A stretch of DNA of 64,000 nt from Chthoniobacterales bacterium (GTDB lineage Bacteria > Verrucomicrobiota > Verrucomicrobiia > Chthoniobacterales > JACTMZ01): positions 62,001-126,000 of the forward strand of contig VEQL01000002.1 in assembly GCA_018883245.1 (NCBI GenBank), written 5' to 3'. The notes beneath the pieces are model-generated. The model did not search any database. It was not told the origin of the DNA and saw nothing but the letters and a program-made list of their open reading frames with translations. Shown here in pieces: positions 3 to 3,101 of this stretch. The translations under genes and the position numbers were made by a program. Position 1 is the stretch's first letter. Every line of letters begins with the position of its first letter.

Positions 3-3000
3 GTGGGGGTGAAATTTTCCCGCGTTTATGACGCAGGAGGTTGGCGGCAGGCGGGGCTGGATTTGCCGGGCACGGGATACGACCGCGAGACGCGGCGGCG
101 GTTGGCGCGGGTGATGGATGAGGCGAAAGTGCGCTACGGCGCGGGGAGCCTTGTGAGAGGGCACCAGTTGGAGGCGATGGATAGTGTCCAGTGTTCCGTT
201 TTCAGTGTTCAGAAAAAACCGTCCGCAGGACGCAACTATTGCGCTCACGCTCAAAATCAAGTTTCAGCCGTCTTGAATGCCAAAAGCTGTTTCAGCTTCA
301 TGGATTCGCTGCTGCGTCCGGAGGATATCGTGCGGATGGCGGTGGAGCGGGGGGCGAAGGCGGTGGCGATGACGGATCCGAATTTGCACGGGGCGGTCGA
401 GTTCTGCACCGCGGCGCAGGAAGCGGGGATCAAGCCCATCGTTGCCGCGGAGGTGAAAGTCCGGGGGATTCCGTATCTGGCGTATGTGGAAAATGCCGCG
501 GGCTACCGGAAGCTTTGCGGGTTGCTGAGCGGAACAAACAAAGACGTCTTGGACGGCTTGATCCTGCGTCCGGCGGCGGCGTTTCCGGAGGTCCGTTACG
601 CCTCGCCGCGCGATGTGAAATTTTACGAAGTGATGCAGAGCATCCGGACCTTGTCGCTGGCGGGACAGCCGCATCCGGACAAACGCCGCGGGGATTTTTC
701 GTGGTCGCGGCAGATCGGCGTGTCGCCGGGGATGCTCCGCGATACGGAAGAAATCGCGGAGAAGTGCGGCTTTGTTCTGCCCGTCGGCGGACTGAAGTTT
801 CCCCGTTTCACTCCACCGGACGGCTCATTATCACGGGATTTTCTGGCGCGTTTGGCCCGCGAGGGAATGCGCAAACGCTATGGCGCGATACCGTCCGGCG
901 GCGTGCGGCGTCAGGTGGACGAGGAACTGCGCATCATCGGCGAGGTAGGCTACGAGGAGTATTTCCTTGTGGTCTGGGAATTGCTTCAGCGTTGCCGGGA
1001 ACGCGGGATCGATTGGATCACGCGGGGCAGCGCAGCCGATTCGCTGGTGTGCTATTGCCTGGGGATCAGCTCGGTCTGTCCGGTGCGCTTCGAATTGTAT
1101 TTCCGCCGCTTCCTCAACCCCGAACGGATGAAGCTGCAAAAATTGCCGGATATCGACATCGATTTCCCGCACGACCGGCGCGACGAGGTGGTCGATTTGA
1201 TTTTCGAGCGTTACGGACCGCACCATGCCGCGGTGGTGGGAGGGTTCGGCACCTACCAAGGCCGTTCGGCCTTCGCCGACATCGCCAAGGCGCTGGGCGT
1301 ATCCGAATTCCAGATCCGGCGCATGACGGAAAAATTGCCGCAGACTTCGGCGCGCGATGTGGCCGCGGCAGCGCACGACAGCGTGGAAACACGCGGGCTG
1401 ACATGGGAAGAGAATCCGTATCAGGCGGCGCTCAGGTTGGCCGCACGATTGGACGGGTTTCCGCGCCACGCCAAGATGCATCCGTGCGGCGTGGTTGTTT
1501 CGCGGGATCCCGTGGGCGACCTGACACCGCTTTTCATCAGCGCAAGCGGGCGTCCGACCACGCAGTTCGACATGGAAGCGGTCGAGGCGATGGGTTTGGT
1601 GAAATTGGATATCCTCGCACAGGGCGGGCTTTCCGTGCTGCGTGACACGCGGGAGGCGCTGCGGGTGCGGGGCATCGAGCCGCCCGACCCGGGCACGTGG
1701 GACGATCCGCATGTGTGGCAAATGATCGCCGAAGGCGAAGCACGAGGGGCGCACCATATCGAGAGTCCGGCCATGACTTCGCTGGCGCGGATGTCCGGTG
1801 TGCGGGCCATCGACCAATTGATCGCCATCGTGTCGGTGATCCGTCCGGGCGCGGCCAACAGCCTGCGCAAGGAACAGTTCGCACGGCGTGCGCGCGGGAT
1901 CGAGCCCGTGCGCTATGCGCATCCGAGTCTGGAGCCGGTCTTGCGCTCGACCTGCGGCGTGGTGGCCTACGAGGAGCATGTGTTGCAGATCTGCGAGGTG
2001 TTCGCCGGATGGGATGCGGGACGCGCGGACATTTTGCGCCGGATGCTGGTGAAAAACCGCATGGCCAACGTGGATGCGTGGCGTGCGGAATTCGCCGCGG
2101 CGGCGCGGACCAAAGGTCGGACCGACGGCGAGATCGCGGCGGTGTGGGATTTGCTGATGCAGTTTCGCGGTTACGCGTTTTGCCGCGCGCATTCCACGGC
2201 CTACGGTTTGGAAGCCTACGAGGCGGCACAGTTGAAACGGTATTGGCCGGCTGAGTTCTTGGCGTCCGTGCTCACGCACGGGAAAGGGTTCTATTCGCGC
2301 TTGTTCTACACGATCGAGGCGCGGCGGTTGGGGATTTCGTTTTCGGGGCCGGACATCAACGGGGAGGTCAGGCGATTTTCGGCGGCGAGTGCGGCAATCG
2401 CAGTGCCTCTGTGCATGATCAAAGGATTGTCGGAGGAATTGCTAACCCGGATCGAAAACGCCCGACCTTTCGCTTCGTTGGCGGATTTCCAGCGGCGGTG
2501 TGCGCCGCATGCGGACGAGGCCATGGCGCTGCTGAGGGCGGGGGCGTTCGACATGCTCGGCGCCTCGCGCACCGGGCAGTTCTGGGAGCTTCGAGCGCTT
2601 GTCCCGTGGAACGCGGGGCAGGGCTTGCTGCTTGAGTCCAAGCGACCGGCGCTTCCCGTTTCACGCACGGAACCCGACCGCCTGCAAAAATTGCGCGATG
2701 AGATGGAATTGCTCGGGTTTACGGTCTCCGGACATCCGGTGGAACTTTTTCCGGATATTGCCTGGGACACGTATTGTCCGGTCCGCGACGTGCGGAAGTT
2801 CGACGGAAGGTTCGTGACGACATGCGGTTTGGTCGTGGCGCAGCGGTTGCATCGCCAGTCCGACGGACGCGCGATGAAATTCATCAGCATCTGCGACCGC
2901 GGCGATATTCTCGAATGCGAGTTGTTCGCCGGCGCTTACCGCAGGAGCGGCGGGGCCGTTGCGGCGCATCCGGTGGTGGAAGTCGCCGGAGTCGTGCAGC

Positions 3001-3101
3001 GTTTGGGCAACGGCACGGCATGCCTTTTGCGCGTGGAGCGGGTGTGCCGTCCGCGCAGTCTGAAACCGGAGGTTCATGCACGGACGGAAAATCACCCGTG
3101 A
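3..3101 (+). CDS. dnaE2: Error-prone DNA polymerase III alpha subunit (DnaE2/ImuC type), 5'-partial, fused in frame to a Y-family polymerase tail
   Basis: C-family polymerase of the damage-tolerance type. Numbering from the GTG at base 3, the palm motif PDIDIDF lies at 382-388 (catalytic Asp383 and Asp385), the third acidic residue is Asp536 in VKLDILA, and an OB-fold region occupies about 930-1015. The PHP region (about 92-220) is short and degenerate: NAK stands where the HxH metal site should be. Residues 1-58 instead resemble the C-terminal end of a Y-family polymerase (MDEAKVRYGAGSLVRG, like the closing helix of DinB/ImuB). The frame stays open to the window's left edge with no stop before the DnaE part. 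If the two proteins are separate, the DnaE start would be the ATG at 177 or later. Polymerase identity is sure; the fusion is inferred. Confidence 0.85.
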   Translation: MGVKFSRVYDAGGWRQAGLDLPGTGYDRETRRRLARVMDEAKVRYGAGSLVRGHQLEAMDSVQCSVFSVQKKPSAGRNYCAHAQNQVSAVLNAKSCFSFMDSLLRPEDIVRMAVERGAKAVAMTDPNLHGAVEFCTAAQEAGIKPIVAAEVKVRGIPYLAYVENAAGYRKLCGLLSGTNKDVLDGLILRPAAAFPEVRYASPRDVKFYEVMQSIRTLSLAGQPHPDKRRGDFSWSRQIGVSPGMLRDTEEIAEKCGFVLPVGGLKFPRFTPPDGSLSRDFLARLAREGMRKRYGAIPSGGVRRQVDEELRIIGEVGYEEYFLVVWELLQRCRERGIDWITRGSAADSLVCYCLGISSVCPVRFELYFRRFLNPERMKLQKLPDIDIDFPHDRRDEVVDLIFERYGPHHAAVVGGFGTYQGRSAFADIAKALGVSEFQIRRMTEKLPQTSARDVAAAAHDSVETRGLTWEENPYQAALRLAARLDGFPRHAKMHPCGVVVSRDPVGDLTPLFISASGRPTTQFDMEAVEAMGLVKLDILAQGGLSVLRDTREALRVRGIEPPDPGTWDDPHVWQMIAEGEARGAHHIESPAMTSLARMSGVRAIDQLIAIVSVIRPGAANSLRKEQFARRARGIEPVRYAHPSLEPVLRSTCGVVAYEEHVLQICEVFAGWDAGRADILRRMLVKNRMANVDAWRAEFAAAARTKGRTDGEIAAVWDLLMQFRGYAFCRAHSTAYGLEAYEAAQLKRYWPAEFLASVLTHGKGFYSRLFYTIEARRLGISFSGPDINGEVRRFSAASAAIAVPLCMIKGLSEELLTRIENARPFASLADFQRRCAPHADEAMALLRAGAFDMLGASRTGQFWELRALVPWNAGQGLLLESKRPALPVSRTEPDRLQKLRDEMELLGFTVSGHPVELFPDIAWDTYCPVRDVRKFDGRFVTTCGLVVAQRLHRQSDGRAMKFISICDRGDILECELFAGAYRRSGGAVAAHPVVEVAGVVQRLGNGTACLLRVERVCRPRSLKPEVHARTENHP
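183..212. repeat. Short direct repeat of an AGTGTTC-like unit at the polymerase junction
   Basis: The stretch carries AGTGTCC, AGTGTTCC and AGTGTTC in close succession. It sits exactly where the Y-polymerase-like tail ends and the DnaE homology begins, and is translated as a Ser/Val/Phe/Gln-rich linker. Its composition differs from the GC-rich coding sequence on both sides. It looks like intergenic low-complexity DNA that has been read through. Confidence 0.5.

Follow-up and report, generated by a model that had tools for sequence, protein, structure and literature searches.

A DinB-like Y-family polymerase and a DnaE2-type polymerase share one open reading frame in Verrucomicrobiota

In a Chthoniobacterales bacterium we found a gene of 1367 codons that encodes two DNA polymerases in one frame. 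Codons 1–389 encode a complete DinB-like Y-family polymerase and the last ~940 a DnaE2-type C-family polymerase, with an unstructured linker of ~36 residues between them. We count 41 distinct genes with this fused frame, in about 39 genomes that span many families of Verrucomicrobiota, and the frame is real rather than the product of chance or error. The gene likely specifies a single-chain, probably SOS-induced translesion polymerase in which a DinB-like Y part, a RecA-binding motif and a flexible tether are joined to a DnaE2 part that lacks a working PHP proofreader; its activity, RecA binding and induction are inferred.

It is unsettled how a Y-family protein and DnaE2 work together in error-prone repair. 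A natural fusion is evidence that the two act together and fixes their stoichiometry at 1:1. Encoding them as one protein would guarantee that both error-prone polymerases arrive jointly at damaged DNA, where other bacteria make separate partners, and with the fused gene biochemical and structural work could be done on one protein. A survey from 2026 that covered the polymerases of more than 3000 complete bacterial genomes distinguished 11 mutasome types. Its main text does not mention a fused PolY-DnaE2, and we found no such fusion in the open-licence literature that we searched.

Architecture and active sites of the fused gene

The window, which is the whole stretch of 64,000 nucleotides that was analyzed (G000:C2:62001–126000), opens inside the gene. 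Window positions equal positions in L002, a stretch that includes the upstream DNA, minus 10000. Positions 3–3101 of the window form a single open frame, which covers only the 3' portion of the gene; the remainder was read from upstream DNA of the same contig. The full gene (G000:C2:60998–65101) begins with a GTG at L002:8998, has no internal stop and ends with a stop codon at L002:13101. Matches to IMS (PF00817, E 1.5e-40) and DNA_pol3_alpha (PF07733) lie in one stop-to-stop frame of 1370 codons. Along the protein, the Y-family body (residues 1–368) is followed by a RecA-NT-like motif (369–389), the linker (390–425) and the DnaE2-type polymerase (426–1367). The features are as follows, in window positions unless marked otherwise.

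G000:C2:60998–62002, before the window: Y-family codons 1–335, from upstream sequence of the same contig
3–101, + strand: C-terminal part of the Y-family polymerase (little-finger region), codons 336–368; matched to Pol IV structures over residues 8–343
102–164, + strand: RecA-NT-like motif LARVMDEAKVRYGAGSLVRGH, residues 369–389; compared by eye with the family alignment and the organism's own RecA
165–272, + strand: linker, residues 390–425; from the family alignment and pLDDT
190–212, + strand: short repeat AGTGTTCCGTTTTCAGTGTTCAG in the linker (read as SVQCSVFSVQ); one further copy elsewhere in the genome
273–722, + strand: PHP domain of the DnaE2 part, reduced and with NxK in place of HxH; the end position is approximate
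723–3098, + strand: DnaE2-type polymerase core, fingers, HHH and OB regions; D718 and D720 at 1149–1157, D871 at 1608–1610
3099–3101, + strand: stop codon of the fused gene

The initial annotation had claimed one unbroken frame running from a Y-family polymerase into DnaE at the start of the window. This held, and the frame extends upstream. Its boundary near residue 92 was accurate, since the RecA-NT-like tail ends at window position 164 and PHP/DnaE homology starts from 273 (frame residue ~91). The further claim of a single polypeptide carrying both polymerases held at the level of sequence, that is, as one encoded frame.

Residues 8–343 of the Y part match Pol IV structures (E 4.6e-51 to 7yll), and D14, D107 and E108 align with the Pol IV catalytic acids. 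In the DnaE2 part, D718, D720 and D871 align with D401, D403 and D555 of Escherichia coli alpha, residues that have catalytic roles in that enzyme. All six acids are invariant wherever they are covered in our alignment of 42 rows. With its three catalytic acids conserved in this way, neither half looks dead, although this is inferred from sequence alone and we have no activity data. The PHP domain has lost HxH in most fused members and is about 85–95 residues shorter than in DnaE1 or standalone verrucomicrobial DnaE2. A shortened PHP domain without HxH is predicted to be inactive, as expected of DnaE2. Scores against the NCBIfam models were below cut-off for both DnaE2 (PRK05672, 476 bits against 939) and DnaE1 (PRK05673, 544 bits against 1002). 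AlphaFold2 and Foldseek gave the DnaE2 part a Pol III alpha-like fold with matches to Pol III alpha structures. The AlphaFold2 model of the Y part was of low confidence (pTM 0.35), and its best Foldseek matches were Y-family polymerases.

The genome contains one other C-family polymerase besides the fused gene, the DnaE2 part being second to the replicative DnaE. A search of the genome with PF00817 gave no second match, leaving the Y part of the fused gene as the only Y-family polymerase found. A candidate sliding-clamp motif in the Y part, QELDLF, was seen in L054; it is degenerate in the other members and was dropped as a shared feature.

Distribution and history in Verrucomicrobiota

Scans for the fusion covered Verrucomicrobiota together with one pattern-limited pass over GTDB r220 contigs. 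The initial annotation had proposed a search for the same fused frame in related genomes, and it was found there. Within the genus, six more genomes have it, in frames of 1346 to 1584 codons (one truncated at its 5' end by the end of the contig). The order-level sample added eight more genomes from two families, and the phylum- and class-level samples added many more families. In the class sample, a close DnaE2 relative was present in 44 of 384 genomes, mostly in frames of 1340 to 1590 codons. The GTDB r220 contigs yielded additional fused records, all of which belong to Verrucomicrobiota according to their titles or to their placement among verrucomicrobial records. Our alignment holds 42 fused rows; L229 and L077 are apparently one gene seen twice, and each of two genomes contributes two copies, which gives the 41 genes and about 39 genomes. 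Outside chromosomes, the plasmid matches that we fetched were separate genes only, no phage record covered 80% of the query, and viral contigs gave only a single weak DnaE match.

Several individual loci stood out. The two genomes with two fused paralogues are G123 (L049 and L050) and JAQGPJ, isolate RYN_636 (L074 and L080). The frame of 1584 codons (L019, genome G004) is about 190 codons above its genus. At L086 (JAJSLK010000028.1, 5985–7779), a Y-family polymerase turns into a histidine kinase and receiver; we did not count it as another Y-family fusion, the contig being probably chimeric with a switch that falls mid-domain.

The DnaE tree places the fused genes within one clade (SH-aLRT 100). 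Branching outside it are the standalone DnaE2 of G021 and G768, then that of G200, then L084, and then the pairs of Desulfosarcina and Bacteroidetes. In L084, polY ends in a stop that is followed by a repeat-rich spacer and the start of dnaE2 (itself incomplete). Family f109 (L210, L211 and L216) has polY and dnaE2 as separate genes about 500 bases apart, yet falls inside the fused clade. Relatives with a clear stop between the two genes would, according to the initial annotation, refute the fusion. Only the outgroups (L084 and the standalone DnaE2 genes) and f109 are of this kind, and f109, nested as it is, is best read as a later split. The simplest account that fits the trees is one fusion in a verrucomicrobial ancestor and the one later split in f109. 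The trees also fit descent of the fused gene from a pair, polY and dnaE2, that was related to the two-gene pair of Bacteroidetes. The deep branching order of the Y tree is unresolved. The f109 lineage does without a fused gene, so the fusion is not indispensable. Between polY and dnaE2 of f109 there is an opposite-strand frame that looks CrcB-like by eye, with no family search behind this label.

The linker is the variable part of the gene. Its length in relatives is roughly 30–105 residues and its sequences cannot be aligned between families, while the frame is unbroken in every fused gene. Within the genus, dN/dS was 0.08–0.14 for PolY, 0.11–0.18 for DnaE2 and 0.42–0.91 for the linker, where the values rest on only 21–40 codons. 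AlphaFold2 pLDDT was below 50 across most of the linker.

RecA-like motif, LexA-box-like palindromes and known mutasomes

Judged by eye, without a motif model, the motif at residues 369–389 is similar to the stretch with which the organism's own RecA begins, LALQQIAKDYGDGAIMRLGD. By-eye alignment shows a similar motif in relatives. Timinskas and Venclovas proposed that the RecA-NT motif binds RecA (PMC6511836). The source genome encodes both LexA and RecA. Six genus members were examined for LexA-box-like palindromes upstream of the fused gene: five carry CTGAACATTTGAACAG and the sixth a variant that differs by one base. Another such palindrome, TGTTCATTTGAACA, precedes the gene in six loci of family f7. 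A similar box adjoins the start of the organism's own lexA. Across the genome, CTGNACANNTGNNCAG matches at three sites, two of which are those of the fused gene and lexA. Neither LexA-box pattern was found upstream of 28 of the 39 genes examined. Control of the fused gene by LexA is a sequence-based inference, and there are no expression data.

The closest known system is the putative DnaE2B-PolY-RecA mutasome of Bacteroidetes (Cellulophaga algicola type; PMC6511836, PMC12926913). Both have a Y-family polymerase that carries the catalytic acids and a RecA-NT-like motif next to a DnaE2 whose active site looks intact. Searches of the source genome with the ImuA model and PF00817 gave no ImuA or ImuB, which the Bacteroidetes system also lacks, and in both polY comes first and dnaE second (as in plasmids of Chryseobacterium, Emticicia and Adhaeribacter). 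The Bacteroidetes pair is the nearest non-verrucomicrobial group in the DnaE tree, and an SH-aLRT of 99 supports the grouping of the DnaE2 part with polY-dnaE pairs of Bacteroidetes, in a tree without published labelled DnaE2B/X references. However, the pair consists of two separate genes, whereas the verrucomicrobial gene encodes one polypeptide; its PHP domain is reduced further than in Bacteroidetes DnaE2, and identity is only ~30%. In our view the fused gene encodes the putative PolY-DnaE2-RecA mutasome in single-chain form, with its function and the RecA complex being inferred.

Other systems are less alike. The ImuA-ImuB-DnaE2 mutasome of Mycobacterium tuberculosis and Pseudomonas also shows a damage-linked association of a Y-family protein with DnaE2, but it has three separate proteins including ImuA, and its ImuB is catalytically dead with an ImuB-C domain, whereas the fused gene keeps D14, D107 and E108. 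DNA polymerase IV (DinB) shares the catalytic D and DE; in the fused gene these are followed by the RecA-NT-like motif at the C-terminus of the Y part and then by an entire second polymerase. A plasmid operon of Desulfosarcina ovata, lexA-DUF72-(Y-family-like)-dnaE (L184), has the same gene order and a related DnaE2, but its genes are separate and its Y-family member is very divergent (long branch).

A DUF72 (YecE-like) gene is also found directly upstream of the fused gene (L002:8211–8951). Although DUF72 adjoins the Desulfosarcina pair, it lies beside no other fused gene that we fetched and was set aside as an operon partner.

Alternative explanations and a proposed mechanism

An artefact of assembly or sequencing, in which the stop between two normal genes was lost, is one alternative; a sequencing error that removes a stop had been named in the initial annotation as a possible refutation. 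The sources are mostly metagenome-assembled and the linker of the source genus holds a short repeat, both of which favor an artefact. Against this, the 41 genes from about 39 genomes have linkers that differ in sequence and length and are always in frame, and the copy in G683 sits in a contig of 4.7 Mb that is the entire assembly. Because the fused frame recurs in independent assemblies, an artefact can practically be ruled out. It is very improbable, too, that the gene is a true ImuB-ImuC (DnaE2A-type) fusion belonging to an ImuA-ImuB-DnaE2 mutasome. The same two protein superfamilies, the LexA-type boxes upstream and the inactive PHP domain speak for that idea. However, the Y part has all its catalytic acids, the variable linker (roughly 30–105 residues, no Pfam match) stands at the position of the ImuB-C domain, and the ImuA NCBIfam model found nothing over cut-off in the genome; one weaker match proved to be RecA when its sequence was read. 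Because of these three observations we do not regard the gene as an ImuB-ImuC fusion. In addition, the DnaE tree puts the DnaE2 part together with the pairs of Bacteroidetes and Desulfosarcina and separates it from the DnaE2 of Novosphingobium and Manganitrophus, which is linked to ImuB/ImuA. The DinB/ImuB-type label of the initial annotation held only in part, the Y part being DinB/Pol IV-like and not ImuB.

One frame might also give two products, if the DnaE2 half were made also or only from an internal start or if the chain were cut in the linker. For this are the in-frame TTG at window position 273 of the source genome, where DnaE homology begins, the variable and predicted unstructured linker, and the viability of the f109 lineage with separate genes. 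Against it, the linkers of several members (L048, L049 and L056) contain no ATG, GTG or TTG, which leaves these linkers without a usual codon for internal initiation. A useless fusion would be expected to gain stops or frameshifts in a linker with dN/dS of 0.4–0.9, but within the clade the continuous frame was lost only in the f109 lineage. We consider two products unlikely; with no protein or transcript data, proteolytic separation or internal initiation remains possible.

Under the preferred single-chain reading, LexA would repress the fused gene until damage occurs. After damage, the motif of the fused protein would bind the exposed end of the RecA filament, the Y part would insert opposite the lesion and the DnaE2 part would extend. 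Both polymerases would be delivered 1:1 because they are on one chain. Overall, the enzyme would work like the proposed Bacteroidetes PolY + DnaE2 + RecA mutasome with its polymerases fused. A bolder reading, which we can neither favor nor discount, is a RecA-bound two-polymerase enzyme in which the Y-family site inserts and the C-family site extends without a separate accessory subunit.

Standalone Y-family polymerases close to those of the fused genes were also seen. These four (L057, L058, L059 and L061), with no dnaE2 within the fetched stretch, carry a similar C-terminal motif.
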